Shown here in pieces: positions 35,898-60,108 of a stretch of 64,000 nucleotides of DNA. A model generated the notes under the pieces. It was not told where the DNA came from. It searched no databases and saw only the letters and a list, made by a program, of their open reading frames with translations. Source of the stretch: Papiliotrema nemorosa (taxonomy: Eukaryota > Basidiomycota > Tremellomycetes > Tremellales > Rhynchogastremaceae); the NCBI GenBank assembly GCA_032158125.1, contig JASKOT010000004.1, positions 1-64,000 of the forward strand. Reading direction: 5' to 3'. How positions within the stretch are numbered: position 1 is the stretch's first letter; each line of letters begins with the position of its first letter. The position numbers and the translations under genes were made by a program.

Positions 35898-36662
35898 TCA
35901 GTCACCTGCTCCGCCCTCATCGGCATGCCTGTCCCCTAGTACACTCGCCAAAGCATCATAAATGGCTCCATGAACACTGTCAAGGGTATCGACCGCGCCA
36001 CGAGCTGCTCGAGCAAGCACTTCTGAACGAGTAGTGAGCGCCAGATACGTTGCTGGTGCAAGATACTCCGCCCCACCCCCTGCCTGTTTGCCCAAGGTCA
36101 TCAGAATAGTAGCGATAGTGCCCGTCTTTGCTGCTACCCTGAAGTCCCGCCACCTCGAGGCAGAACGGATGATCCCGTCAGACCTGATTCTTATTTAGCC
36201 AAGCCAAGACCCATCTTCTCACCTATCGTTCCTAGTGGGCTCCAATCCGCACAGCCATTTGGCGGCTATGAATCGATCTTCAATAGCACTCCTAACCTCT
36301 GTGCTATAGACGTCAGTATCGGAAGCCAGGACGGAGTGCATATCCCTAAAGAGTGCGTTGAGCTGAGTGCTCTCCGGTACGCTACTCGTGATCGTGCGTT
36401 GAGATCCAAGATCCTTGGTGAGCTCGCCCAGCCTCGTGGTCAGCCTCGAGAAGGTCTTCTTGGCGTCCCCAGAGTCTGCACAAAACGTCTTGAGGTCGTA
36501 AAAAATCGGCTCAAGGACCGCAGCGGCGAGAGTAGGATCTCTGTGTAATCTTCCCATCATCTGCGAGTTGTCCGAAACGATACCTACCGATTTACCGACC
36601 ATCCCCCCGAAGTTGACCAAGAGCAACCCAGCAGCAGCGACATTGGATTGCACGGAACTCAT
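35898..36662 (-). CDS. Two-exon paralogue family, member A (unknown function)
   Basis: Exons 36662-36223 and 36153-35898 encode 231 residues. The intron (36154-36222) is phase 2. Exon 1 starts MSSVQSNVAAAGLLLVNFGG (hydrophobic) and ends RFIAAKWLCGLEPTRND with the next Arg codon split. Exon 2 reads WRDFRVAAKTGTIATILMTL, GAEYLAPATYLALTTRSEVL and ends in an acidic tail. Shared with the other five members: a hydrophobic N-terminal helix, the motif [WYN]-[LV]-[CST]-G followed by seven residues and then the split codon, and an Ala-rich hydrophobic segment just after the intron. It is closest to member B (AAKW[LV]CGL). No known domain recognised. Confidence 0.7.
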
Positions 36663-36986
36663 GATGAGAGGCAATCGGCAAAGTCAAGGTTCTGAACTGT
36701 TCTGTACTTACTGTGGATGTCTCCTATCGCTTCTGACTGGAGTATCGCAGGCTTCTCGACAAATCAAGCAGGAGTTTCATGTAGAAGGAAAGAATCTCGA
36801 GCTCTAGCTGGACTGGGCTAGGCTTGGAGAGTCAGACATGGCACTCCACCAAAAACCCAAAAGCGACATCCATCGCCAATGTGGACTGCTCGCTACCAAA
36901 TACGGTACGAGTACAGCCAAGTCGATCTCTCAACTAGCTTTCATCTCCCCTCTCAGTATCGCCCACCGAAACATCAGACCATGTTT

Positions 36987-37817
36987 TCATTGACCGCTCT
37001 TTCTTGACGCCGACGCCGCATCTCCATAATCCTGTTGGAGGTCAAGGAGGCTGTCCGAGTCACAGAGGTAGACCCCAGTCCTAATACTCGAAGCCAGCAC
37101 ACTTGACTGTCCCCTTGAGCGAGAGATCACGGCGTCCAAGATAGGTAACCATGACGCCACCCTGGCGGCTATCTCGCTTGTGACGGGTAACGATCGCACG
37201 CCGTCTCCCACATAATCACCCAGTTTCCACAGCAGAAGCGCAGTGAGTGCAGTCTTGACCGCTCGAACGGTATCCCTGTTTCTGGACACGAGGTGTACGA
37301 TGGAGCGGTCTCTGATCGTCAGCATGCAGCTCTGGTGATTCAACTATTCTTTTCAGTTCACTGACCTCTCAGCCAGGTCATCAGTCAGCCCGCATACCCA
37401 TTTAGCGGCTCTGATGCGTTTTTCAACATCTATCGCGGCTACTAGACTGGATTCGGATCCCCCGCTCCAAAAGATTTCAGAAATTTGAGCAACTTTGACG
37501 AGTAAATGTTTCAACTTTGCTTCATCTGTACTTCGCTGAGTGAGCGTTCGATATGAGGCATGGGAAATCCGTGACGTCGTCTCTGTCAATGTACCGACCA
37601 GGTGAGCAACTTTGATGGCTGCTCCATACTGTCGAGAAAGCAGCAGCTCGGTGCTGATAGGTCTGATCAAGTCCGGGGCCAAGGTGATGTCTCGTTCAAT
37701 TGGTGCCATCGACCTTGGCAGCGAATTGGCATGTAGCAGTCCTGAGACGAGGGAGAGACCGAGGAGGATACTTCCAACCCTACTCGCTCCCGATCGCAGC
37801 GTATCGGTAGTCGACAT
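36987..37817 (-). CDS. Two-exon paralogue family, member B (unknown function)
   Basis: Exons 37817-37366 and 37311-36987 encode 258 residues, with a 54-nt phase-2 intron using a weaker GTCAGT donor. The start MSTTDTLRSGASRVGSILLG is taken because an upstream in-frame Met adds only low-complexity residues. Exon 1 has GSILLGLSLVSGLLH and ends DVEKRIRAAKWVCGLTDDLA-E with the Arg codon split. Exon 2 has DRSIVHLVSRNRDTVRAVKT, then ALTALLLWKLGDYVGDGV. The AAKW[LV]CGL-x6-R junction is shared with member A, 0.3 kb away on the same strand, so these two are the closest pair. Function unknown. Confidence 0.7.
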
Positions 37818-38576
37818 GATTTGTAACCAAACGAATAAGGCGGGAGTCGTGTAGTAGTGTGGAATACTCTCATCGCGTTGAATAGGTTGTCGATTACTCT
37901 CAGCAGGAAGCCCACAGCTCAAAGGATAGTCATCGGGGCATGAATCGCTCAGGTGAGACATCTCCTAATATCGCAATCAGCCATACTCACGGAGAACGCG
38001 AGAAGCTTCGAAGCTTGAGCTGGTCAAGAAGGCCTCGACTGCAGCATAATGAAAGTGAACGCCGTCAATCATGGGCTCATGGGACTTGGTCAGGCGCTAG
38101 GAGACAGCCATGGTGTTGCAGTTAGAAGAGCGATCCAATGAACGTTGCTTCAGCAATCCTCCAGCGATCCGCCTCGGTATCGACGTGTCTTGATGTCCTG
38201 CGATGTTATGAGAGGGTACTCAGCGATGTGTCTGCGCAGCTTGGCTCCTATACACCCTGACATTGGTGAGCTTCGGACTGAGTCTCATTTTGTCCAGACA
38301 TGTACGCCAGCGCTCCTGACATCTCATGCATGAGGACTACGAGTACTTTCTCGCCAAGCATCACCCTCGACGAGAGGTGCTGCGAAGTCGTAGCGAACGA
38401 AGGTCGCTCGCTGCTGACGTCATGTTGACGATTCCTAAACAAAGAATTCTCATTTTCTCGAACGACCGCGAGGTCTAAATGGGTGGTGTACAAGTATCGC
38501 TCAAGACAAGTCAACAAGTGCATGGCGGGCACTGAAATCACCCGGAGTCACACCACTGCAGATTGACACCCTCACG
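37818..38576. other. Intergenic, divergent from SSU1-like exporter
   Basis: 759 bp between member B and the exporter start. A 97-codon minus-strand frame (38248-38541) has no clear family relation. No RNA gene or palindrome cluster seen. Confidence 0.4.
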
Positions 38577-40221
38577 ATGCGAGAATCAGAATCAAGGGTC
38601 AAGCGATGGGGATGGCAGATGTGGGTCCTCATCCCGAGCACCTCGCTGAACATCCAGGTTCAACATGAATCTAGGGACAGGAGCCGGTCCGTGTTCTTGC
38701 CCAATGCGCAAATTCAGGCTGACGGACAGTATCTATAGTTATAGCGACCGAGATATACCCCTTCAATGGTCAACATACGATTGGGACTGTTTTCTTCATT
38801 ATCAACATTGTGGTGTATCTCGCCAATTGCACCATGGCGGTACTCCGGATGATCCGGTATCCTCAGCAATTCAAGCAGAGTTTCTTTGATCAAACAGAGG
38901 CTGTGTGGTTCCCGACAGTCATGGTTGGCATGTCGACCCTTATCACCTGTACCATCCTATACGGCGTGCCGTACTGCGGGGTAAGCGATTGGTGAGGGTA
39001 TTTCGGCGCTCATGGTAGGAATGGCTGGTGACCGCTTGTGAAGTGTGGTACTGGGTCTACATTGCCCTCGCCGCTTGTTCCGCTCTTGTAGTTCAGAGCA
39101 CATTGTGAGTCGTTTTACACGTCCCACGCGTTAACGCGGATCATTGACGCTGTAGACGGACGATACCTCGCCCGCTGGTCAATGTCGCCCCTTGTGACTG
39201 CCTCGAGGTCTACCCTTTGATGTTTGGAGGCGTGGTTGGAGCTACACTCGTACCCGAGCTGTTCAAGATCGACCAAGCAAGAGCTCTTACCATGCTGATA
39301 TTCTCCTTCTGCATGCAAGGTACGGCGGTCACACGACCCCAGCTAATTGTCAGGCTTAGGTTTCTGGATTGGTATTCTCAAGCTCTCAGTGTGGATGGTA
39401 CACGATATGACCCTCGCTCGAGCCGATCCGTAAGTACCCGGCACACTCTCGACTGACTATAGTAAACAACTCCCCGGATACCTCATCTCTGTCGGCGTAC
39501 CTGGCTTTACAGCTTATACGTTGATTGCGCTGGGTAATGCAGCGTTGGATGTTATACCGGCCAACAACGTTCTCTCCGGTCTGGGAGAAGCTGCGCCTAG
39601 TGCAGACTCTGCAGCTTCATCGATCTTCATCACGTGTGTCGTGCTCACCTTCTTGCTCATTGTAAGTGTCCCAGACCCGTGCAATCGCAATGCTAACACC
39701 CAGGGCATGGCCAGTACGTTCTGGTTCAGATGTTGAGGAGGCATGCTAACGTATAGTGTGGTTTTTGCTCATCTTTGGTTTCTTTGTGATTCGCGCATTC
39801 ATCGAAGAACCAAAGAAACCTTTCTCCAAACGATGGACGTTCGTAAGTGACCATCATCGTCGCATATGCTGGACCACCGGCTGACTCGCCAGACCTGGTG
39901 GGCATGGACGTTCCCCCTGAGTAAGCCCTCATATACGCGCCCCGCGAGTGTGTAGTGCTCATCATACAGCCGGAGTAGTCATCACCTTTGCTCGATTTGG
40001 GAAGTATCTCCCGTCTAAAGGCTTTGCTATTCTCAACGTCATTTTTGTGATAGGTATGAGCGGAATGTGAGTTCATGAATCGATCGTATTTGTCCTGTCA
40101 CTGATTGCTCAGGTGGTTCATCAATGCCGTCGGGACTGCGGGAATGCTTTGGAAGAATGATTTGCCGGGGACGATGGACGAGTTTGATATTGAGCGCATA
40201 CATGAACTGCGGGACGACTGA
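38577..40221 (+). CDS. SSU1/TDT-family exporter (sulfite or C4-dicarboxylate)
   Basis: A ten-helix plasma-membrane transporter of the tellurite-resistance/dicarboxylate (TDT) family, which includes yeast Ssu1 (sulfite efflux) and Mae1 (malate). Several small exons at the 5' end join as WQMFNMNLGTGAVSIVIATE and IYPFNGQHTIGTVFFIINIV, the conserved first helices. Later segments are FPTVMVGMSTLITCTILYGV, YPLMFGGVVGATLVPELF, GFTAYTLIALGNAALDVIPA and FWLLIFGFFVIRAFIEE. The last exon ends GTMDEFDIERIHELRDD at 40221. The substrate cannot be decided; sulfite is favoured by the NxGTGAVS and P-F-N-G text resembling Ssu1. It converges on the GH5 gene with only 80 bp between stop codons. Confidence 0.75.
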
Positions 40222-40300
40222 GTTCTTTGGCGCATCGTTTGGGGTGGTGAAATGTATTGCATAGTCTGATTAGTCGTAGCATCATGTATTATACAACATT

Positions 40301-41813
40301 CTAGTGTCTATACTCGGACACTGTGAACACAATGGCGAACAGCAACATGATCGCGACGGTAAGAGAGATGGATGCAGATGCTGTAGGATGGGCTCTACCC
40401 GGATGCTTTGGGGCGGTGTAGTTGAATCCGGCATCAACGCATCCGTTGGACAGTACCGGGAAAGCGAATGTCGATGAGTTGGAAACATCGGATGGGATGT
40501 ACGATTGAGCCACCCCTCTTCTGTAGGACCAGGTGTCGATGTCCCATTCTGTTTTCCCTGCCTATCAGCCGGCAGACGTAAGATGAACTTACAAGTCCAA
40601 TAGTACCATCCGATCACGGCTTGATCCGGGGCAGAAGGGGAATACGCCGCGAGTTGCGCCTCAAAGAAGAGCCTTTGCCATGTTCGCTTCTGTTGACTTC
40701 CTTCTTGGCCCCTCCATGAAGTGGTACTGTTTGGCGGTTGACCACTTTCCAGGCTCCATTCGCCGACGATGGTGGGTGAAATGGAATTGGAATGGAGTAT
40801 CTGGGAAATGTTGCAGATGGAGTCTAAGATTGTTTCATGCGGAAGATCATTCAAGGGCGGGAACGCGTAGTATTGATGTGTGTCTAGAGTGAAGTTGCTT
40901 TGAGAGTTGGAAGATGGGTTATAGTCTGACCAGTAGGATGGTCCCCAGAAAGCATCTACAATGAGCCTTCTTTCTCCATGGCAATACTCACCATGCGCGG
41001 TGGTGTTCATCCCGTAAGGACCGATAATCTCCTCCCCTTGACTGTAGAAATCTTTCAACAAGGTCATCGAGAAATCTCCGCCTAATCGAGGCTCATTGAG
41101 CAGCTCAATCCCTGTTGATCAGTCGAAGTTCAGACTCATATCCCGTGACTCACCTTTGACGACTCCACCATACTGATCGAGCGAGAACTCTTGGGTGAGG
41201 TTTTGGATGACTCCCAGTGTTCGGTCGATGTTCGACGTGTTGGTTGGGAACAGTACAGGTCCGATCAATCCCGAGTTATCTTGGCCATTCTGTGAACCCG
41301 GTGCACCGTGTACATCGATCAACACGGTGAATCCAACCTGTTGCGCCCACTGCACCGCTCGGATCAGGTAGGGGTACTACGAATCAGCCGTTCTTCAGGC
41401 CGGCTGCTCACCTGTCCGTTGACGTAGGGCTCCCAATCTTGCACATCTACAGCCCAATAACCGACGGGGATCCTGACCGAGTTGAGCCCGACCGATTTCA
41501 TCTCCTGAAAATCGTCCAACGTGAAGAACGAGCTGTCATCAGATACAGTCACGATGTAGTGACTCACTCCCAGTGCGACTGAAGGAGCTTCTGACATCCA
41601 GTCTTCCCTGCTGCTGCGCACAGATGCCACTCATCCTGCGAGGTATCATCATATAGAGACGGGGTGATCCTGATGGTGAGCTTGGCTGGATGGCAAAAAC
41701 TTGGGCACTCACCATCGCTCCGTTACGAGCCATCCACCCAAGTTGACACCTCTGATCGAATCTGCGAGGACCACGTGAAGCCAGCATAATGCCAGTACCC
41801 AATGGACTCTCAT
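40301..41813 (-). CDS. GH5 exo-beta-1,3-glucanase, membrane-tailed
   Basis: An EXG1-type family 5 glucan hydrolase. The signal peptide is MRVHWVLALCWLHVVLADS, then the family opening IRGVNLGGWLVTERW; a short intron follows. Next come ITPSLYDDTSQDEWHLCAAA, FTLDDFQEMKSVGLNSVRIP-VGYWA and FTVLIDVHGAPGSQNGQDNS-G. The acid/base Glu is in GIELLNEPRLGGDF, and the nucleophile Glu in TIVGEWSLESGQ. The conserved VIGWYYWTWKTE follows. The C-terminus extends past the enzyme to a hydrophobic segment (ISLTVAIMLLFAIVFTV) and a short basic tail, so it is probably anchored at the plasma membrane or wall. Such enzymes trim beta-1,3-glucan during wall remodelling or external glucan use. Confidence 0.9.
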
Positions 41814-42353
41814 TCGATGGTTCGAGATGACAAGACGAATGAGATGTCCGATGGCGAGGTGAAGTTGTTGTCGATGGTGACGTTAATTGCCCCGCAGCAA
41901 CTTCATACCAAGAACCTCGTCGTCCTCGCCAAGAGCAGGATCACACATCTCCGGTGCATCCATCGCAGCGTCTGGTCTATAGTGTTGCATGTTGAGGAAG
42001 ATCATCGGCCACCTCGAGTATACCTCGCAGGATGTCGAGTGAAGGTAACATTGGACGAGCCCAGTTCGCTGACATGGGCGGCGGCCTAATCATCGGTGCT
42101 CTCCCCGACCCTCCGCCGCCGAACAAACAACACTAGAGCTGATATGGGCTCAAGTCAGAGCGGCTGTCGGGGGATTTGGTATTACTATGGGCCTGTACAT
42201 GCATGACTCAGAGATGCGCCTCATGCACAAGCTGCCCGCCTAATCGTCCGTTTCTTCCGCGATCGGCCCTTCTCTGCAGTCTGACCGAACAGTGTCCAGA
42301 TTCCTTCTTGAGTGACTCACCATGTACGAGCTCATCTCTACCTTTCAACCACC
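41814..42353. promoter_or_regulatory. Divergent promoter, GH5 glucanase / GH63-like hydrolase
   Basis: 540 bp between opposing starts. Open frames within it look non-coding. A CCGCCGCCGAAC tract lies near 42114. No defined site called. Confidence 0.35.
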
Positions 42354-44206
42354 ATGTCGCCCGTCGAGATTGACCCAAAGATCGTTCCATGGTCATACCG
42401 AGGTGCATATCTCTGCTTGGCAGGTCGTGCAGGACTCAATGGCCGTTTGAGCCCAGAGAAGGACATCTACCTGATTTCGCATCATTACTCTGCTGGAATT
42501 CCCTTGCTCGCTCTTCGACCGCATGTGGACCCTCTCCCGGCGCCTGAGGGCTTCTCGCAGATGGACTCCGGGGTGACCTTCAGCGCCACACCATCATGTA
42601 TGACCTGGAAGATGGGACAGAAAGTGGTCGCCGAGGCGACGTTTCAGGATTTCAGGTCGATCAGGATACGCGGAACAATCCCCATGTCTTTCGATACGGA
42701 GGGTAAATTGGCAGTAGACAACTGGAGAAATTGGATCTACAGAGTCCCACCCACTCAGACTGGCGATAAGGACGTGGTGGAGCTTCAGACTACCCCAAAT
42801 AACGCAGTACGGTTCACGATTCTCAGTGGACAAGCGGAACTCACCAATGACGCCCCGTACGATTTCAACTTTCAACATCAGAATCGACGCATCGACATTT
42901 CCTCAAAGTCCAAGGGTGGGGAGTGGGAGGTGACGATCAGCGAGATTGAAACGGAGGAGGGTGATATACCGAAAGAGGATCATTCGGGACGGAGCTTTGT
43001 GGAGTGTGAGAAGGCCATGGACGAGACCTTTGAGCAATACGTCGCCGAAGTGTGCTCGTGGGCTCGACAACCCACAGCTGCAGACAGACTGGCAGCGTAT
43101 ATCATGTGGACATCCACAGTGAGACCCGGTGGATACTTTACTTCAGAGGCGGTTCTGATGTCGAAATTATGGATGGACAAGGTGGGTCTACTCTACGCTT
43201 GGGTGACTGACTCCAGTTATGGTCTTGGGATAACTGCTTCAACGGGCTTGCCCTATTGGCATCGTCAACTACTCTAGGTCTCGGTCAGATCCTTCTCCCA
43301 TACTCTCACATTACCCCTCAAGGTAGACTACCCGACTCGATGATGCGCAGCGAGCTATTGTACGACTATGTCAAACCTCCGATTTACGGCTGGACATTCT
43401 ACCAAGCTCTCGCCCTCTTGGATCCTTCATCCACCATCGATGCCCCGGCTTTCAAGGCCTTGCCGGAGGACACGTTGATGGAGGTTTACACCAAGGTGTC
43501 CAATTTCACCATGTTCTGGTACGAACATCGCGCTACAGCTCACTCGGCTATCCCTTATTACACTCACGGTAACGATAGCGGATGGGACAATTCGACAGCT
43601 TTCGATCGACAGACCGTATGTGTCGCTCCGGATCTAGCGGGACTTCTCGTGGTGCAGTGTGACTTCCTCGCCAAGTTGGCGAAGCATCTGCATGAGGAGG
43701 AATCGCAATGGGCCGAGCTGCGGGACAAAACTCTCAAAGGGCTAGTGGACGAGTTATGGAACGAGAAAGAGGGGCAGTTCATGTTTAAAGACGCTTTGGA
43801 TGGGTCCACCTGGACTTCGACCACTCTGCTCAAGTTCTTGCCCCTCGTTGCCTCCAATCATCTATCCAAGGACAAGGTGGATCGCATGGCAGACGGTCTA
43901 GAGGCGCACCTCTCAGAATGGGGACTGGCGACTGAACAACTCGATTCGGAGCACTACGAATCGGACGGGTACTGGAGAGGACCCATCTGGGCTCCACCTA
44001 CCATCATGATTGAGTCAAGTCTGCGTAGCGCGGGCAAGACCAAGTTGGCGGATACCATCGCGGAGAGGTATATCAAGTTGTGTGAGAAGAGTGGGTTCGC
44101 CGAGAACTACGATGCGGTGACGGGAGCTGGGAACAGGGATCTGTCGTACACCTGGGCTGCATCTGCGTATCTTGTCATACGGCGACAACAGGAGAATCGT
44201 ATATAA
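42354..44206 (+). CDS. GH63-like (MGH1-type) glycoside hydrolase
   Basis: Exons 42354-43181 and 43217-44206 (35-nt intron) encode 605 residues; the start at MSPVEIDPKIVPWSYRGAYL is preferred to an upstream in-frame Met. The C-terminal (alpha/alpha)6 barrel carries the family signatures KLWSWDNCFNGLALLASST, DSMMRSELLYDYVKPPIYGW, GNDSGWDNSTAF and YESDGYWRGPIWAPP, the last close to the general base region of GH63/GH37-like enzymes. No signal peptide is seen, so it probably acts inside the cell on imported sugars. Mannosylglycerate hydrolase (MGH1) type enzymes have this layout; the real substrate is not known. It lies 212 bp upstream of the GH2 gene on the same strand. Confidence 0.75.
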
Positions 44207-44418
44207 GTCTAGATACATAGTACAGATATCCTCCATGCATACGTACAAGCCTGAGATACGCTGAGTGAGCCGGGTGAGTGACCGGAGGGATCAACGGCGA
44301 TTCCACCGGGACGCTAGGTGGAGGTGGACAAAGGGGGAGCATCTCTAGTCTTATACAGGTGGAGATGCATGCAGTCGTGTTACAGTCGCCCTTCTCTCGA
44401 GCTATACGGTTTGTTACG

Positions 44419-47363
<2,945 letters not shown>

Positions 47364-47574
47364 ATGGCTGTGTAGAGATTCAAGACCTCACTGTACTGGA
47401 TCGGAATACTAATTAATGACAAAAATTGTCTGTGAAAAACCATACATATTGTATGCTCCCCGCCGGGATCGCAAAATACTATGTTGACCTATATCGTATG
47501 ACCACTACTCATCTCTTGACCCCTCAATCGCCGACCTCCACTCATACACAACGGGCGGACCGCATAGTAGTTGC

Positions 47575-49550
47575 TTAAGCTCGGAAGTTGATTTGACCTC
47601 CTCCAGCAGCTATGTTCTCGGCTGCGGTAGTCTGGACGGGAATCCTATTTTCGAGGTTGTCGCCGTGCTGAGCAGCGATATCAGACACTATCACGTCAGC
47701 CTTTGTGCGCTTCATGAATTTTTGTCACTTACAATCCACATGGGTCGATTTGAATTGTCTAGCGGGAACCTTTTGCTGGAAGAGGTAGTCGAGTTCCAAG
47801 AAAGTTCGGTCTTTGGTCTCTGCGATTCGGAAGTATGCGTAGATTGTGCCCAAAACACACATGCCGAACCAGTACCATCCACATTTTGCTTGCCAGTTCC
47901 AAGCAGTAGCGGAAAGCATTCGAGGGATCATTTGTCCGTTGACAGTGTTTCCGATAATGTAGGTGGTTCGAGCCAACACGACCGATTGAGCTCGGACTCG
48001 AGAGTTGGGAGTTTCACCAATGATGGTGTAACAGGCTGGACCGAGGGAGAGCTTGAAGGTGAGGTTGATCAAGATCATCATGACTGCCACGGCGATTCCT
48101 TCCTTTGCTTTGGGAAGGTGGGCAACACCGACGATACCGATGATGAGTTGCCAAAGACCGATAACGGTAACTCCGGCGAGGTAGAACTGTCGTCGACCAA
48201 CTCGACCCATAAGGTAAATGGCGATACCGGTAGCAACGACGTTGGTGGATTGAATGGCCATCGAGTAGTTGAAAGCCATGGTCTGGGCCATACCGGCAGC
48301 TCGGAGGCTGACATGAGCATGAAGCTAGCTGTATTGTGGTATACTCACAAGACGGTGGCATAAGAGCAGATGGGTTGACCGTTCCAAGTTTGAATCAAAA
48401 AGGTCATGCAGACAATCTCGGTTCTAATGATCAGCCAGGATTCTAAGCAGTGAGTGAGAAGATTGCTCACCGTCGCAGATTGGTACCTCGGAAACAGTCC
48501 CAGTAAGAAGAGTTGGCAGCCTCGGCTTTCTCCTTGTCGTTGGTGTATTTCATCAAAGCGAGTTGAGCCTTCATCTGATCAGGAGTGTAGTGTCCCTTTC
48601 GGGCAAGTCGGTACAACGCCTTCTCGGCCTCTTCGTATCGCTCCATTCGGACCAAGTACCAAGGACCTGAGCGTCAGTGTCAGACCCAGCATGCGGAGGA
48701 AGAAGACCCACTCTCGGGCGCAAAGAAGGCAACAAGGAAGAGAGGGACAATCCAAACCCATTGAAGCGCATAAGGGACTTTCCAGGCCCAGTTACCCTTC
48801 AATCCCAAAGATCCTCGAAGAACACCAGCGGCGAGGAAAGATCCAGTACCCCAGCACATGGATACCCAAGAAGTGAGGTAACCTCGCATGGCAACAGGGG
48901 CGATTTCTGCGGCATAGGCGGTAGTCAAGGTTTGGAAGATACCCCAGGGGATACCACAGATGATGTTTCCGGCCAAGAGCATTTCGACATTCTGGGCAAA
49001 GAACAGGCAAAAGACTATCGCACATCAGCATCTGATTGATATATAGGCAAGGGCAGAGAACTCACTGGTACCAGCCATTACGATCATGCCACCCATGTAA
49101 ATCCTTCGGGACCCATACTTGGACTGAGCCCAACCGTTGAACAAGAGACCGACGATAGCACCACACTGTTGGCCGTTGTTGATGGCGGCTTGCCATTTGG
49201 CCGAAATGTGCATTTTTCCATTGGCATCTGGGACACCGAATCGTTCAATATAGGCTTGTTGACCAAAGAAGTTGTTGACCAATCCGACATCCATACCCTC
49301 CATGACCAGCGCAAGGCTTGGTATCAGTACAAGTCATCCTCGTGCGATTTGAGACCTACGAAAGAGCCATAGACCACAAGGCGGCGGGCCAATGAAGCTT
49401 CACGACACCCTTGAAGCCGAGCTTGGTCTCCTCCTCACCCCTGAGCATCGCCTGCTCAATGAGGGTCTGCTCAGAAGACGTCTCGAATTCATTGTGGTCG
49501 ATGACACCCTCCTTCTTCTCATCTGGATACTCGCTAAAGTGCTGACTCAT
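47575..49550 (-). CDS. MFS sugar transporter
   Basis: A 12-helix sugar porter. The start at 49550 gives MSQHFSEYPDEKKEGVIDHN, an acidic cytosolic N-terminus. Conserved elements include LVMEGMDVGLVNNFFGQQAY, then QCGAIVGLLFNGWAQSKYGS-RR (the G-x3-D/N...GRR loop), IICGIPWGIFQTLTTAYAAE, WSIV-type helices, FAPESPWYLVRMERYEEAEK (the PESPRWL loop), LMGRVGRRQF, and IAETKDRTFLELDYLF at the end of helix 12 (PETKG-type). The text resembles fungal disaccharide/alpha-glucoside and lactose permeases, and its place next to beta-galactosidase suggests a galactoside or oligosaccharide substrate. The C-terminus ends GGGQINFRA at 47575. Several short introns fall between helices. It converges with the GH2 gene (about 210 bp between stops). 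Confidence 0.85.
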
Positions 49551-50392
49551 CTTGACGAATGTCGAACCCTGCTCTGAGAGTGGGGCAAGTGAGGTTCAAG
49601 TTGTTCTGTCAGGGGAAAAGGGTCTCTCCAGCGGGGCAAGAAGGGGTGATTATATACCCATCCGGCCAATTCACCGTGACTGACCCGTTGCATCTTCCAC
49701 CCGTCCGGGCCCAACGGGGCCAAGGAGTGAGGATCTTGGCGTGGGAGAGGGGAGCAATACAGTCATATGACTCACGCGTACGTCGCGCACTTTGTTCGGG
49801 ACAAAAGACACCGACATACCCAACACCAAGATCGACAAAGGGTTCAGCTCGTACCCTGCATCTCCGCTGAATGTTCCTCTTGGCGGTCTATTCTGCCACC
49901 CCGGCCCGCCAGTCTCCACAACGGGCCGTCGAGCCTCAAGGTGTATTTCGGCGCCGACGCGACCTGATTAGAGGCGTCGCCGTGTGACACGTAGCGTGAG
50001 AGGAGAGGAATGGGGGTCGGACGGTACTTTGACCGGGTCGTGACAATGATACACCTAATTCCCGATGGGCAATTTCCGGCGCCGTAAAACACCGGGCTAT
50101 GGCTCACGAGTCACCTTGCTGCTTTCGAGCCTGAACAATACCGGGTTGGCAGCCAGTGCGAGACGCATTCACCCCGTCGAGATGCATGTTCTGGGACCGC
50201 AGCATGTGTTACAGAAAGTGACCGATAGAACGGTGGCCCGTGTCTGCCCCGTCAATTACCTCCCGAAGCGACTGAACTGTTCGGGCGGATCGGGTTCAGT
50301 CCTGAACAGGATACAGCAGTATCCGGAGATGCAATTAAGTCGTTGTTTCTCCGCTTAACTCTCCACGACGACTTTGGGCAAGATGTGTGGGG
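49551..50392. promoter_or_regulatory. Divergent promoter, MFS transporter / alpha-mannosidase
   Basis: 842 bp between opposing start codons. It is rich in CGG/CCG triplets (for example CCGTCCGGGCCCAACGGGGCC near 49701) and has an imperfect inverted repeat near 50300 (GTCCTGAAC/GGATACAGCAGTATCC). It may coordinate import and hydrolysis, but no site is proven. Confidence 0.35.
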
Positions 50393-53300
50393 GATGTACG
50401 CACGCCGACTATCCTCGTCGAACTAACGAGGCCAATCATCCTCTGTTGACCAAGATTGCAGGTCATGCATCACCGTACAAGAGATCATTCGTTGACAAGT
50501 AGACTGATACGCGCTTGGATAGATTCTTCGATGGTCCTTATGCCTCGCAACACCTCGACACGTTGTTGAACAGGGCGAGATATGGTGGTTCGCCTCATGT
50601 CAAAATCACCAAATGGTCTGCGCCCGGAGATACTAAACCTGGATTTGCGGAGGCCGTCGAGAAGCTTGACGCGGAGGGAGTGGAGATCGAGAAGGGGTAT
50701 CTGTTCGGACTGAGTTGGACAAATCACTGGTTGAAGGTGGAGATGACCATCCCGGAAGCAGTAAGAAATGAGCCTATCATATGTGGGTACCATGCAGAAT
50801 CAAGGCTGACACGATAGTCGAATTTGACCCTTCTTGCGAAGCGCTCATTTTCGCCCTCGACGGGACTCCTCTGCACGGTGAGCGATTTCTTGTGATCAAG
50901 CTCATCCCAGGGATCACTGGAGGGCCCAACACGCTCAAAGATGGAAAGCCAGGAGAGCAAGAAGATCGACGGGTCGAGCATATCATTCCCCCCGAGAAGG
51001 TCCAGGCGGGATCATATGAGGTGATCATCGAGGTCTCGTGTAACTCCATGTTTGGGCTAGGTCCGTATAGGTATCAAACACCCGATGTGAGTGTCTCAAT
51101 ATCGATTGTACTCAAGCTCACGTCAATAGCCTAATCGTACCTTTCCATTGGTGTCCGCGGACATCTTAGTCCCCAATATGGAAGCCCGAGCATTGCGTTA
51201 TGACTTCCGCGTCCTCACCGAGGTTGCTCGACATCCTGATGGTCGACTACAAGGCTTGTCGCAACGCGCTCTGAAGGCCGCGGACGATATCATGAACACC
51301 TTCCGGCGTAGAGCAGGGGATACAGAGGATGGCTTCGTCGATGGCATCATCTCGAAATGCCGGAGCATCGCTTGGGGCGTCCTGGGACAGCTGGATGAAG
51401 CTGGTCTCCAGCAGGTATGTACCAGAAGCAATCAGCCTCGAGAAGGGAAGATGTGGGCCATTGGGCACTGGTACGTCCTGCCTAAAATCAGACAGCCGGA
51501 GTCTGACGTGAAGTCACATCGATACCGCTTGGCTCTGGCGATACACCCAGACTCAACAAAAGGTACAGCATTCTGCTCGTACCGCATTGACCTATAGATC
51601 GCCCGAAGCTGGTCTACCCAATGCGACCTCATGGACAGATGGCCAAACCACCAATTCGCGGCTTCCTCTGCCCAACAATACCTCTGGCTCGAGCAGCTCT
51701 ATCCTAAAGCTTTCGACCGGGTCAAGCGATACATCAAGAAAGGTCGATTTCACTATGTCGGTGGAGCATGGCTCGAACATGACTGTATGATACCAAGTGG
51801 AGAGTCGCTGGTCAGGCAGTATCTGTACGGTCAGCGGTATTTCCGCTCGCGGTTTGGCGAGTATTGTCGAGAGGCTTTCTTACCGGACACCTTTGGGTAT
51901 GCAAGTCAACTGCCCCAGATCTTGAGGTTGGCAGGGTTGAAGTACTTTTTGACCCAAAAGGTAAGCGGTTCAATGGCTTTTATGCTGATTGAAGCTCGCC
52001 TGGAACAACATCACTTCGTTCCCTTACACCACGTTCAACTGGGCCGGACTTGATGGAACTCAGGTGCTGGCTCATATGCCATCGGTAGATAACTACAACA
52101 GTCAATGCACCTTGTAAGCGTCCGTGATATCTGGCGGCTGACAAGAGCGACGAGATAGTCAAGGGAGTACGGAACAACAAGAACTTGGGAGTAACCGATC
52201 AGTGCCTCATGCTCTTTGGCAATGGAGACGGCGGAGGAGGTCCCACTCCGACTATGCTGGAAAAGGTGAGTCCTCCAGAACGAATACCCCTGACATCAGC
52301 TGGACCGGCTGAGCTCTTTGAGCATGTCAAATCCAGAAGTCCCGACGCTCAAGGTCGGATCGCCAATCGACTTCTTCGACGACCTATGCGAGAGGACGGA
52401 CGCCGGCAAGATACTGCCTACCTGGCATGGAGAGTTGTATCTTGAGCTGCATCGCGGAGTGCGTCTCGATCGGGCATACTTGGAGACAAGCTGATAGGTA
52501 GACGTATACGACACAGAGCGGCTTGAAACGGGGTAACAAAAATATGGAGACTCTGCTTCGAGAATTGGAATACTTTGGGTCCATGGCATCCATACTCGAC
52601 CCCTCGTACAAGTATCCGAAGTGAGTGCTTCTGCAAACTGAGAGAGGATCTCTGACATGTAGGAGTGGTTTGGACGCCATGTGGCAGGACACGATGCTGG
52701 CTCAGTTTCACGATTGCATCCCAGGGACAACCATCCGGGGGGCAGTTGACGACAATTTAGAGATTTACGCAAAGCGATCAGCCCAAGCTAAAGGCTTGAT
52801 AGGTATAGCTCTCAAGTCTCTCTCCGCTGCATCAGGTTGCTCAGTCATCGACCCTCTCAGGCTCAAGCGGGACCATGTATTCGAATACGAAGGTCGACTC
52901 GGCTGGCTGTCCACAGATGTATATGGACAAGGGCAGCTGGTCGACCGACAGGATGTATCGGAACCTCGAGCTCGATCAGAGGGGGATCGACATATCCTGT
53001 CGAACAGCCGGTTCAAGCTCACCATCGATCAAGGCCGGATCTGCAGCATCTTCGACCTCGCAGCAGATAGAGAACTGATCGAAGCCGGTCCTGGAGTCGA
53101 CGATGCAGGACTTCTTCTGTACGAAGATTACCCACTCACATACGATGCCTGGGATGCCGAGATTTATCACCTTCAGTCGTATTCCACTCTTCGGTTCGAC
53201 AGCGTAACGGTCAAGGAGGATCCTCTCAGGGCAAGCCTGATAGGTGAGGTATCGTTCGGCAAGTCCTCGGCGACCGTCACCGTGAGTTGAGTAACCTTGT

Positions 53301-54212
53301 CGTCGCTGACCTCAGATATCGCTGGACGCTACTGCCAAAGATGCGCAAGATGGTTTCTTACATTTCAAAGTGGACGTTGATTGGCGAGAACAGCACAAAT
53401 TCTTGAAATGTGAGTCATGTATACAGGCCATATATCTTACATCAGTTGCTTTGCCTACTAGTGTCCGGTCACCCAATGCAACGTATGGCACTCAATTTGG
53501 GACCGTCCCTCGACCGACACACCGGAATACTCTACAAGATCAAGCCAAATTCGAGGCTTGCGCACATGGATATGTCGACTTGTCAGAAGCCAACTATGGT
53601 GTGGCGCTGGTTGCCAGAGACAAATATGGTTATGCGGTCGAGAGCAATGTCATCCGTTTATCCTTGGTTCGAGCACCCACTTCTCCTGATCCAAAGACGG
53701 ACCAAGGGTCTCACGAGATCTCATTTGGGATTTATGTGCATACAACGGGCTTCGGTGCAAGCGGCGTTGATCAGGCTGCATTGGCGTACAACCACAGGCC
53801 CTATGGTGAGCATGTGAACTCATATTGTGGGTGGATGACTGAAAGCAGTTCTCTCGCATGGTGTAAGAGACCTGCCATCCTTCAAGTTGGACATCGAACA
53901 ACCTCATGGTGTCGTACTGGAGACGATCAAGCGGGGCGAGGAGGACGATAGCTCAGGCGAAAAGACGATCGTTCTCCGGCTCTACGAGGGAATCGGCGGT
54001 AGAGCGAAAGGGACTTTGAATATGTGCGTCATGATGTGTGGTGTACGCTGACGTGCAGTGAAGGGCTGTCGGTGAAAAAAGCAGAATGGACGGACATTCT
54101 CGAGCACAAAATGGAGGGCGAAGAGAATCTCATGGTGAACGGCTCACTTGTGGAGATCCCGCTGGACTTTAGGGGTTTTGAGATCAAAACTCTTCGTCTT
54201 GTCCTAGCCTAG
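50393..54212 (+). CDS. AMS1: GH38 alpha-mannosidase (vacuolar AMS1/MAN2C1 type)
   Basis: A class IIC alpha-mannosidase with many small exons. The start at 50393 gives MCGGCTHADYPRRTNEANHP. An N-terminal region reads VKITKWSAPGDTKPGFAEAV, then GLSWTNHWLKVEMTIPE. The zinc-binding motif H-C-H-I-D (followed by TAWLWRYTQTQQK) is assembled across an intron (51471-51513) that splits the Cys codon. The catalytic Asp region is REAFLPDTFGYASQLPQ. Further features: LMLFGNGDGGGGPTPTMLE, PTWHGELYLELHRG, QDTMLAQFHDCIPGT (third zinc ligand region). The C-terminal beta domains end NGSLVEIPLDFRGFEIKTL-RLVLA. No signal peptide, as for Ams1, which reaches the vacuole by selective autophagy and degrades free mannose oligosaccharides. 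The end of exon 1 (50474 or 50498) is uncertain. Confidence 0.88.
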
Positions 54213-54393
54213 AATGATTCATTGTGCGACATTGAGGATAGACATGATTCATCGAATATGGACATGAGCATCTGGTCCCTCATCAAGACCAGAATGGACG
54301 ACTGCGACTTATTCACATCTCATATGAACTGACACTTTACGGATCTCGTATCCTCACTGACCTAGCACCCTTTTCCCCAGTCACTCATCCCAA

Positions 54394-55240
54394 TCAAGCT
54401 TCATCCGGACTCTCTTCGACTCGCTCGGCTTGCGAGCTGTTTCTCGATCGAAAGCGCGCTAAAGGTCTCCCTCTCATAACAGTCGCAGTGGATTGCAACG
54501 CAAGGGCACCTACTTCGGGACTTTGGGGGGCATCGTTCGTTGCTTGCGACATCGCATCACGGACCGCTCCGTAACCTCTGCTCAAAAGGCTCGGTGTGGT
54601 CGTCACATAGGCGACAAGCTCGTCGGCCAGTGGTGCCCAGAATGTATAACCCAAACCATACGCCGAGGCGTAAATGGCGAAACTGGTGGCAATCCGAGCG
54701 TTTCGCATGGTAACATCGTTGTTCTCCAAAGCTCGCTTGGTGCTGTAGATCGTAAGCAGTATGCAATATCATCAAAAGAGAAAACACTCACCGATCATTC
54801 AGGAGACTCTCATCACCTGAGAGATTGTACAGCGAAGCCTTCAGGTGACCCATCGCTGAATCTTTCCATCTCTCGTCTCTTATCCCCGTGATAGCGTCTT
54901 CGATCACTTCGAAGTTGCTTCTCAGGGCTAGGCGTTCGGCAAGGGTGAGGTCTCCCTGCATTGCGAGCATGGTGTGCAAGGTAATTGACGACTTCACTGT
55001 GTCTACCATCTTAGTCAGATTGAAATCGGGATTTCTTTGCTGCGCGATCATTGCGCTGGTCTGCAAGCACACCAGCGATCGAATTGGCGAGCGACAAAAC
55101 GTGCTGACGTCTGGAGCAGGATCGGAAGCATCAGTCAGTCCATACGCCCGTAATATGAGTCGTGTGAGCCGAGCTGACAAGGTAACACACGTATTCGAGC
55201 TCGTCGAGTCCGGTCCACTCTGTGAATCTGTCGAGGGCAT
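54394..55240 (-). CDS. Two-exon paralogue family, member C (unknown function)
   Basis: Exons 55240-54792 and 54742-54394 encode 265 residues; the 49-nt intron is phase 2. Exon 1 begins with a polar region (MPSTDSQSGPDSTSSNT), has a helical segment SPIRSLVCLQTSAMIAQQ and ends HLKASLYNLSGDESLLND with the split Arg codon. Exon 2 has TKRALENNDVTMRNARIATS, then the hydrophobic FAIYASAYGLGYTFWAPLAD, and a basic C-terminus (MRGRPLARFRSRNSSQAER) with an acidic end. The LSGD-x6-R junction places it between the AAKWLCGL pair (A, B) and the YLTGE/YLSGD members (D, E). It is transcribed toward the GH38 gene. Function unknown. Confidence 0.7.
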
Positions 55241-55708
55241 AGTAGCAGTAGAATGCGAGAGACAGGGGTTTTGATGGTTACTGTATCAGTTGACATGAGG
55301 CTCTTAACCCTGGGCTGCTGTGGGAACGGCGAGAAAAATTCGCCGACCAAGAATCCTATCAAAGGATCCTCTGCCATTCCGAGGCAGCAAACCTCATGAG
55401 CTGACACATAAACACGGATACTGAGCAAGAACTTCTCTAGCCGATGCGCTTCTGATTCAGCCGAATCTCGCACGTGTCGCACGCTTCAGTGGTAACCTCT
55501 TATCAACGTATGTTGTGATCTCGGCAACTCTGCTTGCATCAACTCTACACGCCCTATCAGATCGAACCGTCAACGCTGACCGCCAGCCATCTTCGTCAAA
55601 TCACAGTACTTTGGGTGGCAGCAGCCATCGTCGTCATACGGCCCTTTCGTGCCTTCCTCAGTGCCTACAACTCCCCTCCAGTATTTCCGAGGCCCAGTCC
55701 GCTTGAGA
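55241..55708. other. Intergenic between family members C and D
   Basis: 468 bp upstream of member C. Nothing recognised, and no clear TATA box. Confidence 0.4.
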
Positions 55709-56422
55709 TCATCGGAGGGCAAGCGGTGCAGCTTTCTCAGATTCCCAGTACTTCTGTGCTGCATTGCTGAAGTTTTCGAATGCAGCTGGCATGAGATGGC
55801 TCGCCAGCGATTTTTCGCCCAGAGCAGCACAAACAGCGCTCAGCAGTAGACATTCACCAAAGTTTCCGGCGGCGCTGGTGGGAGCAGAAGCGGAAAGCAT
55901 CACGCTCATTCTCAGTGGATCGTTGGTCTGCGACGCAAGCAGAGAGTTGTAGACGCCATGAATATAATCGACATCTTCTTTCGAACTGTCATCAGCTCAC
56001 GGCCAAAGTGAGTTCATCACCACTCACAGTCCGACCAGATAGGATGACTCGCCAGTGAGGTAGTAACGAGAAGCTTGGGAACACACTTTGGCGAGGCTCC
56101 TCGCTTTCTCAGCGGGAGCATCTCGGATCGATTTCTCTAGGCTCTCATGATCCTCTGCGAGGGAGGTGATCCTGACTTCGTGCGTCATGGCGTCATCGAG
56201 TAACTTCCGATGCGCCGACTCGATCGCGGCAAGTTGTTTGTGCATGGCACTCTGCCAGGCGCTTGGGAAAGTGGCGGTATGAGCCGCGGCAACTAGCAAG
56301 CAACTGGTATCAAAAAAGAATTGAGCGGCACCAAGTGATTTTGTGGTACTTCCAGAGTCGGCCAGGCCTGGAGTTGAAACATTGACAGTCTCGGTATCCG
56401 TCTCAACAGTGTTTGTTCGCAT
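55709..56422 (-). CDS. Two-exon paralogue family, member D (unknown function)
   Basis: Exons 56422-56028 and 55985-55709 encode 223 residues; the 42-nt intron is phase 2. Exon 1 contains LGAAQFFFDTSCLLVAAAHT, which matches GAAQAFFIAGTLYTA of member F, and a polar helix, ending SRYYLTGESSYLVG with the split Leu codon. Exon 2 reads SKEDVDYIHGVYNSLLASQ, then NFGECLLLSAVCAALGEKSL. A TATA-like element (TATAAA on the minus strand, 56478-56483) lies 56 bp upstream of the start. No known domain recognised. Confidence 0.7.
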
Positions 56423-57469
56423 GATTTGTATACTGAATAGTTGGTTATGATACAGGTGACCTGGAGGTGCATTGCTGTTTTATACATTCTGTACCTACCT
56501 CCGAGGGCTTCTCGTGAGAACAGAAGCACGATGACAGACCAGGCTTATCGGTGCAAGAAAGATGGGAACAACTAGCAATCAAACCTTTGAAGAGTTCTCA
56601 TCAGCATGACAATCAAGATATACACAGCCCTTCATGGATGTTCGCAGGTCCCCGAGTAGAGAAGGCCTTTACTTCTCAGCCAACCCCTACATGGGATGCT
56701 ACGATGAGAACTCTACGATCATCGCAGAATCCCCTCCCACACATCCCGGCAATGCTTCTGATTCTGGTCCACCTTATCCGTTGGAGAAGGCGAAGATGGG
56801 AACGATGCTTGCACCAAAGGTTTTTCTCACCTTAAATCAGAAAGGATCGCTGACCAGCTTGACGCGTTATTCTTCGCACGCTCACGCTGAGAGGGACGCT
56901 AAGTGAATGGACCGATTGCCACTTCTTCCGAAGCAGTCGATTCGCCGCGGGCATTCAGGAGAGCTTTCGTTTTCGGGCTCTTCTCGCACAACATCCATAC
57001 CTCACAAGCTTGGAACTTTCTGGACGGGGCTTTCGGATCGACCTTGGTCCCACAACTCTTCGCCCTTGCGAGTCACGCGTCCGGTGGCCCGGCAGCCCTT
57101 CTGACCGGCACATAACGAGGAAGACGGTCGCCCCGCAAAATTTGTTGGCGGTAGAGACCTGATAAGGTCAAGAATGACGACAGACGGAAGAAATCGAATT
57201 TGCTCTCATTTACTCGCACATCACTCTTTCACCTGGTGATCATGCCTGATATTCTTCTACAGTACTTTGACAGGAGCGCATAAGATGAGATCAGGATCGA
57301 TTGGGAACAAAGGCTAGCATTCTAGCCTGTCCCAAGCCCAGCGATGCATCGGTCAAGCTCCACATCATCATAAATACGTCTGCAACTGCATGTCAAATTC
57401 ACAAGGCAGACTTGAGAAGCAAAACATTCGACCACTTCCACGCATCCGAGGCACATATAGGTAGAGTGT
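56423..57469. other. Intergenic between members D and E, possible relic
   Basis: 1.05 kb without a clear gene. It holds plus-strand frames near 56634-56906 and 56903-57115 whose text (FLTLNQKGSLTSL and QAWNFLDGAFG) loosely recalls the junction and post-intron segments of the surrounding paralogues. It may be an inverted, decayed copy, but the evidence is weak. Confidence 0.3.
56478..56483 (-). promoter_or_regulatory. TATA box of family member D
   Basis: TATAAA on the minus strand, 56 bp upstream of the ATG. Members E and F have similar elements at 59 and 28 bp. Confidence 0.45.
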
Positions 57470-58266
57470 TTACTGCCGTACTCGGTTTCTGACACCTCGG
57501 CGGTCCGGGACAGAAGCATCTGTGCCAGTTGAAGTTGCTTGGGATGGCGTCTCCGGTTGAGGATCCGCTGCTGCAAGCTCCTGATAGTGACGGAGGGAGA
57601 TTTGATAGAGCTCTCTCGCAAGACTTGGCCTCCCAAAAGCAGACGAGATCATTTGATCGAAAAAAGGTCCAGCGAGTAGGTTGCCGGCGCGGTGGGCAGT
57701 TGCATAAGCTGCAAGACTGATCAATGTATGACCGTATGTGCGGCCGAAGTCGGACACCGAGACGACCTGGTCCGTGATATCCTTCACCCGGCGGGATCTA
57801 AGAGTCAGCCAGGCGGTATTGTTGTAATAATTATTGCTTCGGCTTACAGCTCAGTAAGGCCAGAGGGGTCTCCACTGAGATAACACTGTGACAGATTTCG
57901 GAACATCCTGGCTGTAGATGTCAGCACGTGATCGGGCCCTTCTTCAATGTACTGCTCCAGTTGTTGATAGAGATCCACGAGTGATGCGATACCTTCTTGG
58001 GTGTGGCCCTCTTGCAACGAGTCAAATGTACCGCTAGCGGATAGATTCATCGCTTCCATCCTGGCCCAGTCAGCGGATGCATTTTGAGAATCCCGTATGA
58101 TGTTGCCGATACCGGTGCACATCACGCTGGCGTGATAACATAGACCGGCTTTGAAGGGTGCTCTGGGGGCAGCGGACTGAGTGGCAAGGCGCTGAATGAT
58201 GGACGCCATAGTATCGCTGGCGGAAGCCGTCGCTCTTTCAGGCGGCGATGACGGATTCTCAGACAT
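57470..58266 (-). CDS. Two-exon paralogue family, member E (unknown function)
   Basis: Exons 58266-57848 and 57797-57470 encode 248 residues; the 50-nt intron is phase 2. The start MSENPSSPPERATASASD is chosen over an upstream in-frame Met at 58305 because the TATA element at 58325-58331 would leave too little leader. Exon 1 has APFKAGLCYHASVMCTGIGN and ends LSQCYLSGDPSGLTE with the split Leu codon. Exon 2 has SRRVKDITDQVVSVSDFGRT and the hydrophobic GHTLISLAAYATAHRAGNLL, then a polar C-terminus. The YLSGD-x6-L junction is closest to member D. Function unknown. Confidence 0.7.
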
Positions 58267-58836
58267 GGTCAATTGTGAGTGGGCGTGAGTGTTAGGTGTA
58301 AGCACAATGAAAGTCCGTCGTGGTTTATATAGCTCGTCGCTGGCTGCCGTATCTCATGCGGTGGGAAAAAAAAACTAGAACACAGAAGTGCGTTTGCACA
58401 TGACCACGCCAAGGTTGAGAACGGTTCTCACCATCTAGCGCTTCGATAAAAAATGCACGGAGAGGAGTCTGAAAGGATGACGGGGGAAGGCGTGCGAGGC
58501 GCACAAGTTCTCGATGAGGAAGTAGAGAAGCAAGAGGAGGAGTCAGCACTTTTCGTGAGAAGGCAGCGGTCGTTCAGTAACACTGTCAAGAGTCGGCTCA
58601 TATGACTCGAATTACCTCACTAAGATGCGCAAGTCGTACCAACAACTGCCGAATGCCTAACTGTAGTGTCTTTGATGTCATGCTGAAAATCCTCATTCTA
58701 GCAGGAACAACTTTGATTTCTGCCTCTTTATCCACCGTCATCCAATGCATCGTGCACCGCCTAGGCAAGCTCCTCTATAGACTGGTCTTAGCGCCACTGC
58801 TCAGTTTCTCATTTAAAAACACCATCAGCGGCAGCC
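58267..58836. other. Intergenic between members E and F
   Basis: 570 bp. It has a TTATATA element at 58325-58331 (TATATAA on the minus strand) serving member E, and an A8 run near 58367. A short plus-strand frame (58602-58859) with a hydrophobic stretch is not supported as a gene. Confidence 0.45.
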
Positions 58837-59699
58837 TCAGAACGGGGGATAGGCCCTGAAAAAAGAGAGACGCCCTCTTTTGAGTTTCCACTCGCCGTAT
58901 TCTCCCCTCCCGGTCCATATCTCCCTCCTGTCGTCCGCGAGCCGATTTCCAACCTCGATCTCAACCGAGTCCTCCTCCTCCGGAGTAGATTGGGGTTCAT
59001 CACCGACCGCAGACCCTTCAATCCTCTCGAGGCCGGGGTTCACTAGGCCTATGGAGTACTTCGCGTCTCCTAAAGCGGCTGCGGTCATGGCTGAGAGAAG
59101 CGACGAGGCCAGGATGTCATTAGAGGTGTACACACTCGCAAAAGCTGCAAGGCTGGGCCATAGAGACCCTGCTTCCTCTCCCACAGCATCAGAAAGATGT
59201 AGAATTATACTGGCAGCTCGAGCGGAGCCGATCGATCTGTAGTCAGGCTGGCTTCAGCACGATAAACTCACCTCCGACCTTGGTAAACAGTCTTACTCAA
59301 GAGGTGTCCTCGAGAGAGACTGTAGCATGTGATTGCGATGTCCTTTACCGATTCGAAGGGCGTTGCGTTGATATCCTTTGCCAAGCGGTCGTACTCGCCA
59401 TTGAGACATGATCGCTCAGCCTTGCCATCACTTATATCCTGGAACTTGTACGCCGCATCTCGCGTCCTTCTGTTTGCTTGAGCCAGGGTACTTTCACGCT
59501 GCTCTTTGTGCGTTATGCATCTGGATATTGCAGTATACAGAGTGCCTGCAATGAAGAATGCTTGAGCTGCACCGGGTGAGTACTCCAGTTCTGAGGCGTG
59601 TGTGAGTGCTGAACTGCCTTCAACATAAGTGTCAGAGTCACTGTTCGAATACCGATTGCCGTTCATAATCCGTGCTGATCTGCGTGGGGGATTAGGCAT
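58837..59699 (-). CDS. Two-exon paralogue family, member F (unknown function)
   Basis: Exons 59699-59272 and 59236-58837 encode 275 residues, with a 35-nt phase-2 intron. Exon 1 begins with a basic, Ser-rich segment (MPNPPRRSARIMNGNRYSNS), contains PGAAQAFFIAGTLYTAISRC, nearly the same as GAAQFFFDTSCLLVA in member D, and ends AITCYSLSRGHLLSKTVYQG before the split Arg codon. It is four residues longer than the others between the conserved Gly and the intron. Exon 2 has ARAASIILHLSDAVGEEAGS, then SLAAFASVYTSNDILASSLL, and a long charged tail unlike the other members. A TATATAA element lies 28 bp upstream (59727-59733). Function unknown. Confidence 0.65.
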
Positions 59700-60108
59700 C
59701 GCTCATGACTTTCGAAGTTTCGGGGCTTATATAGGTCATTTTTACGAGTTCCACGCTCTATCGTGTGAAGTGCAGCGAAAGGAGAGAGCATGATCGCTCG
59801 TATAAGAAGCGACAGAAGTGCGAGCGATTTTCACCCCTCACGCAGCAGACCTGCCCATTGTATAGTAGAACGATGTAAGGAGGACTGGGAAAGGTGACCT
59901 GGGAGAATGAAGCTACGCGCCTATTGAATGCACTCCGCCAAACACGGCCTTTTGCGAGCCTATTCACCACCCCCCCCCCCCCTTCCCTCCGGTTATTCGA
60001 CCCTTCATTTTGAACCGGTCCCTTGCTCAAGAGTGGATTTGCTGAGACTTCGTCGTTCAGTCTTCTACTTTATCCTTTCCCTTTCAGACCGTTCAGCACA
60101 TAGCCAGC
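59700..60108. promoter_or_regulatory. Divergent promoter, family member F / FOX2, with 13-nt C run
   Basis: 409 bp between opposing start codons. It contains the TATA element for member F, a run of 13 C at 59970-59982, and a pyrimidine-rich tract just before the FOX2 start. Confidence 0.5.

Follow-up and report, generated by a model that had tools for sequence, protein, structure and literature searches.

Do six small genes near one chromosome end of Papiliotrema nemorosa (Tremellales) descend from a common ancestor, and what might their products do? We analysed a window of 64,000 nt, the left end of contig C4 (JASKOT010000004.1, assembly GCA_032158125.1), to which all coordinates refer. An earlier note on this DNA had described the six genes, here named A to F, as a tandem family of two-exon paralogues with low identity, a fixed intron and no known domain, possibly associated with membranes. 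We put forward an explanation that we regard as possible rather than probable: the six genes likely form one tandem family encoding predicted soluble helical bundles, which would act as non-enzymatic binding proteins.

All six genes could be rebuilt on the minus strand as two-exon models at the places given before (Table 1), encoding proteins of 241 (A), 258 (B), 265 (C), 223 (D), 248 (E) and 275 amino acids (F, from the earlier of two starts). Each model has one predicted intron, which splits an arginine codon in A, B, C and F and a leucine codon in D and E. The common phase 2 described earlier is found in all six models, with a reservation for B discussed below, while the length range of 35-69 nt has to be corrected to 35-54 nt; a 69-nt intron for A was rejected, as it has a weaker donor (GTGCGG) and would delete the LCG motif of this protein. 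A filtered splice scan yielded one candidate each for C, D and E, three for A and two for F, all in phase 2, and three candidates for B, all in phase 0. The phase-2 intron of B (donor GTCAGT) was seen in a wider splice scan only; the splice sites of this gene are ambiguous, and the intron was picked partly by its resemblance to that of A. The motif [WYN][LV][CST]G stands seven residues ahead of the split codon in five of the six proteins (A to E), as had been noted before, whereas F has lost it and reads HLLS at the same place. In all six genes, frame 0 has a positive total codon log-likelihood; the 30 other frames all score negative, but their scores carry a penalty for stops. Better proof of coding comes from the resemblance of the proteins to each other, since no direct repeat of 30 or more bases was found in positions 34000-61000.

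Kinship was assessed by pairwise local alignment with 300 shuffles per pair. Five pairs were significant, namely A-B (z = 19.7), E-F (12.4), D-E (9.6), D-F (9.4) and C-E (7.5), and in none of them did any of the 300 shuffles score as high; C-D (1.5) and C-F (-0.1) were not significant over the full length. In the multiple alignment, C to F carry their split codons in a common column and show no gap in the residues ahead; F lacks the four extra residues ascribed to it in the earlier note. The 46-residue block before the intron contains five residues that are invariant in these four proteins (L, I, A, S, L). When 30-residue segments were anchored at the intron, the intron register came first of all registers in four pairs (A-B, C-D, D-E and D-F); it took rank 2 in C-E, rank 6 in E-F and rank 12 in C-F. 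By similarity together with the same intron position, C to F thus make up one tandem paralogous family, in which C is placed mainly by its similarity to E and by the intron block, and A and B make up a second group of related proteins. Alignments and shuffles hence support the earlier picture of tandem paralogues with low identity and a common intron position within C-F and within A/B. With a protein identity of about 20% within C-F, the kept intron marks the common origin of these genes, which makes them a useful case for finding hidden paralogues.

For the fold, an AlphaFold model of D (four-row alignment, intron read through) gave a mean pLDDT of 59.6, with all ten ten-residue blocks of residues 31-130 at 67-95. 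The predicted helices of this part span residues 30-51, 53-74, 81-101 and 105-123, the last one ending at the motif. The model of A is all-helical as well, with helices at 43-60, 65-86, 96-114 and 121-137 ahead of the motif in an order like that of D. A helical bundle formed by exon 1 can be predicted with fair confidence in D only. Fold searches with the D model returned generic helical matches only, including those against four-helix bundles of the PDB. A stretch is commonly taken as transmembrane at a 19-residue hydropathy mean of about 1.6; the highest values were 1.53 in A, 1.48 in B and 1.43 in D, and lower in the others. Judged by hydropathy only, no 19-residue window reaches this level; the membrane association suggested earlier is not supported, and the proteins are likely soluble.

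Gene F has two possible starts. From Met12, its exon 1 comprises 132 codons, the last one split, as in D, with two one-residue gaps in the alignment of D and F. This match and the spacing of the TATA-like boxes ahead of D, E and F favour the later start, so that F probably begins at 59666 and encodes 264 amino acids. Three of the six genes carry such a box, against a background of 0.019 per 80 bases on each strand across the window; the three boxes were noticed after the fact, and they suggest regulated expression of D to F. Among promoter words, no 12-mer is common to two or more genes, and three 11-mers are each common to one pair of genes.

How could such a set of genes arise and work? We suggest that local duplication gave rise to A with B and to the trio of D, E and F, to which C is linked by way of E, in a tandem birth-and-death family that a stretch of carbohydrate genes cut into two arrays. 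The sequences would likely diverge fast while the fold stays. Exon 1 would encode a bundle whose last helix stops at the L-[ST]-G motif, and the intron seven residues further on would mark the connection with another helical part, which exon 2 encodes and for which the prediction is poor. By altering its surface, each paralogue could bind a different partner in a recognition-type or accessory role. The non-enzymatic binding role is one we infer because no enzyme domain was detected, the proteins are predicted to be helical and the family is divergent.

Several observations weigh against this explanation. None of the eight A/B versus C-F pairs exceeds z = 2.4, which is not significant over the full length, and an hhalign comparison of the A/B and C-F profiles gave E = 0.23 at a probability of 0.3%. 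The phase-2 intron of B is one choice of several, so that its phase cannot count as independent evidence. With a profile of D, E and F, the reach of which is short, C scores no better than E = 0.098 for exon 1 and 2.3 for exon 2. Scored on synonymous codons only, the six genes lie near zero (-0.027 to 0.015); frame 0 is not singled out, and some wrong frames score higher. Five reference frames, on which the codon table was trained, reach 0.021 to 0.068 and all exceed the six genes. Such low synonymous preference fits young or weakly expressed genes and is weak proof of coding. In the D model, the blocks from residue 131 on have a pLDDT of 52 or less and exon 2 is poorly modelled, and the A model is poor (pLDDT 46, exon-1 blocks 41-140 at 57-78), so a fold common to the family is not demonstrated. 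By hydropathy, B and, less clearly, A start with a hydrophobic N-terminal stretch. No TATA-like box lies within 100 nt of A, B or C, and the binding function is an inference only.

The comparisons between the groups lead to the strongest alternative: A/B and C-F could be two unrelated small families on one chromosome arm, in which the intron phase and the motif agree by coincidence or, for B, partly through the way in which its intron was picked. The intron register ranks between 6 and 153 over 30 residues for the eight pairs between the groups, and between 1 and 91 over 15 residues. With F set aside, the 15 residues ahead of the intron were scored against C, D and E and gave p = 0.008 for A and 0.018 for B against 7629 segments, the intron register being the best of 180, which weighs against unrelated families. 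This signal fades past 15 residues: with segments of 20 and 30 residues, p lies at 0.03-0.055 and the intron register is outscored by others. A further argument for kinship is the best local alignment of A and C, in which the codons split by the intron stand in register; both groups also agree in strand, in size class and in being predicted helical. Since the intron choice for B was not independent, we shifted weight from the single family to this alternative, which we nevertheless consider rather unlikely, and a common ancestor of all six, suggested by the intron position and a short motif, is no more than likely. Kinship hence holds within A/B and within C-F, whereas between the groups full-length similarity is not significant.

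Does the family extend beyond this locus? Searched one by one against the whole 19.2-Mb genome, the six proteins found themselves, at times their closest relatives, and no other convincing copy. Such searches are short-sighted: with protein E as the query, exon 2 of F scores no better than E = 0.40, and neither C nor D is recovered. A consensus of C-F hit seven places, all within the cluster and covering all four genes, a recovery of members that is given by construction; it revealed no fifth member in the genome. In a profile scan of C4:1-274000, the best match outside the cluster reached E = 0.12 (99873-100148). Four genome matches on other contigs were taken as chance. The one on C36 (E = 0.08) had no profile match; the one on C3 (E = 0.58) had none either and lies near frames that by eye resemble RhoGEF and glutaredoxin; and on C17 (E = 0.26) the frame is myosin-like by eye, with a D-F exon-1 profile value of E = 0.14. 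For the match on C19 (E = 0.27), the frame differs in phase from a long one that overlaps it and is kelch-like by eye. This match is the least comfortable rejection, as tblastn of B against the four loci only gave E = 3e-5 (56 residues, 36%), while the A/B exon-1 profile reached only E = 0.72 at this locus.

Known families gave a similar picture, and the absence of a known domain, as noted earlier, was borne out by searches of Pfam and of PDB sequences. With hmmscan, none of the six proteins had a Pfam match above the curated cut-off, and three had one row each below it (best E = 0.087). The search of PDB sequences gave no convincing match; the LabA adhesin (E = 0.032) and GH88 (E = 1.6) were judged chance. 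Viral profiles (PHROGs) were matched at best at E = 0.026, by four families each in one of the six members and none convincingly, and viral structures (BFVD) at best at E = 0.79 for the D model. A protein-database search with the alignment of the six returned, within the best 7997 candidates, two frames from this window only, which hold exon 1 of B and of A. When protein E was the only query, 628 candidates were scored, and not one had an E-value of 10 or below. In a control search, the BSD2-like neighbour at 7888-9210 had at least 346 matches within the best 7993 candidates; the database thus holds Tremellales proteins. In the titles and abstract openings of the papers found, no family of this kind appeared. 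We consider the family likely restricted to one lineage; this is not proven, since the database searches need shared 5-residue words and could miss diverged orthologues.

The window opens contig C4 (923 kb) of a 19.19-Mb genome in 68 contigs and begins at a TTAGGGGG-type telomere; in the available text of one report, TAAC(4,5) is the telomere motif in Cryptococcus and Kwoniella (PMC11185503). Exact three-unit TAACCCCC arrays also occur on C8, C19, C36, C41, C48 and C49, in C19, C36 and C49 at the contig end. The gene cluster lies 36-60 kb from the telomere and, as far as detected, at one chromosome end only. About 16.5 kb with carbohydrate-use genes separate the A/B array from the C-F array. 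The MGH1-like glycosidase in this stretch is also matched by trehalase and GH63 profiles, and the frame at 40282-41118 (minus strand) is GH5-like by eye and has no Pfam match. Beside gene A lies a polysaccharide lyase 14 (PL14) gene (34059-35650) with a long Thr/Val- and Pro/Glu-rich tail. Closer to the telomere, the BSD2-like protein shows, among the matches listed, 68% identity to Naematelia encephala, 65% to Tremella mesenterica, 60-65% to Kwoniella and 54-59% to Cryptococcus; its best match of all listed (88%) indicates that a close relative of the host has already been sampled. A Ser/Thr-rich frame at 13097-14296 looks by eye like a GPI-anchored wall protein; the other strand is open over a long frame there, too.

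Table 1 Features of the six-gene locus in window coordinates.
Feature	Position	Strand	Basis
Telomere repeat (TAACCCCC)n, left end of C4	18..95		Repeat search
Gene A exon 2 incl. stop	35898..36183	-	Rebuilt model
Gene A predicted intron, 39 nt, phase 2 (GTGAGA...AATCAG)	36184..36222	-	Splice scan
Gene A exon 1	36223..36662	-	Rebuilt model
Gene B exon 2 incl. stop	36987..37311	-	Rebuilt model
Gene B predicted intron, 54 nt, phase 2 (GTCAGT...GATCAG), ambiguous, phase-0 alternatives	37312..37365	-	Wider splice scan
Gene B exon 1	37366..37817	-	Rebuilt model
SLAC1-like channel, MGH1-like/GH63-related glycosidase, GH2 beta-galactosidase, sugar transporter, GH38 alpha-mannosidase (between B and C)	39148..53951	both	Pfam
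Gene C exon 2 incl. stop	54394..54742	-	Rebuilt model
Gene C predicted intron, 49 nt, phase 2	54743..54791	-	Splice scan
Gene C exon 1	54792..55240	-	Rebuilt model
Gene D exon 2 incl. stop	55709..55985	-	Rebuilt model
Gene D predicted intron, 42 nt, phase 2	55986..56027	-	Splice scan
Gene D exon 1, predicted helical bundle	56028..56422	-	Rebuilt model, structure model
TATA-like box of D	56477..56484	-	62 nt ahead of ATG
Gene E exon 2 incl. stop	57470..57797	-	Rebuilt model
Gene E predicted intron, 50 nt, phase 2	57798..57847	-	Splice scan
Gene E exon 1	57848..58266	-	Rebuilt model
TATA-like box of E	58324..58331	-	65 nt ahead of ATG
Gene F exon 2 incl. stop	58837..59236	-	Rebuilt model
Gene F predicted intron, 35 nt, phase 2	59237..59271	-	Splice scan
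Gene F exon 1 from preferred start Met12 (earlier start 59699)	59272..59666	-	TATA-like box, D/F alignment
TATA-like box of F	59726..59733	-	67 nt ahead of Met12; 34 nt ahead of earlier ATG

The setting raises alternatives concerning the role of the proteins, which are compatible with the two-family alternative. The six could be co-regulated accessory proteins of the carbohydrate-use cluster, e.g. helpers of sugar sensing or uptake, as A/B and C-F flank the sugar transporter, GH2, GH38 and MGH1-like genes, with the PL14 lyase beyond A and TATA-like boxes in D to F. We found no direct link between the six genes and the cluster, and six diverged orphan paralogues would be unusual for a carbohydrate-use cluster; we consider this role improbable. 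A bolder proposal, to which we assign slightly less credence still, is a new protein family of one Tremellales lineage whose six subtelomeric paralogues would have diversified for recognition or antagonism, in the manner of self/non-self factors or spore killers, on a common two-part helical fold with the exon border between the parts. Its close relative, that the genes are selfish or antagonistic (spore killers, allorecognition or incompatibility factors), would agree with their subtelomeric, tandem arrangement without known domain, and in the part of the source available, telomere-side lineage-specific genes of Neurospora mostly cluster with HET-domain genes (PMC10684091). In the proteins studied here, hmmscan found neither HeLo (PF14479, up to E = 10) nor HET (PF06985), and a genome search for both gave no match here, nor in the control genomes, and we consider such a role quite unlikely. 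Least probable of all are secreted effectors for a mycoparasitic or plant-associated life, a notion suggested by the tandem arrangement of small orphan proteins close to the end of a chromosome and by the hydrophobic starts of B and, less clearly, A, which by hydropathy might be signal peptides, and opposed by the position of the first hydrophobic peak (starting no earlier than residue 20 in D, E and F, and in C at residue 17 with a weak value of 0.83) and by the few cysteines (two to four per protein).

What would a family of binding proteins at this locus add? As its members match no family searched, it may add a new family to those of fungi. Subtelomeric lineage-specific families are already known in fungi, and without a function the interest is moderate. 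Fungal HeLo-type domains are all-helical and roughly 220-250 residues long. Our proteins resemble them in being predicted all-helical, in their similar size and, for A and B, in the hydrophobic N-terminus, whereas the HeLo profile itself does not match them. In Candida albicans, a subtelomeric family that we take to be the TLO family is reportedly spread over many chromosome ends, in contrast to the single end detected here. Its likeness to our locus lies in the subtelomeric expansion of a lineage-specific family (PMC9713401). The telomere-adjacent lineage-specific genes of Neurospora crassa differ, as far as the available text goes, in that they cluster with HET-domain genes, for which our search, which had no working control, gave no match; with the six genes they share the location near a telomere, the scarcity or lack of domains and a restricted taxonomic range, which here is only likely (PMC10684091).

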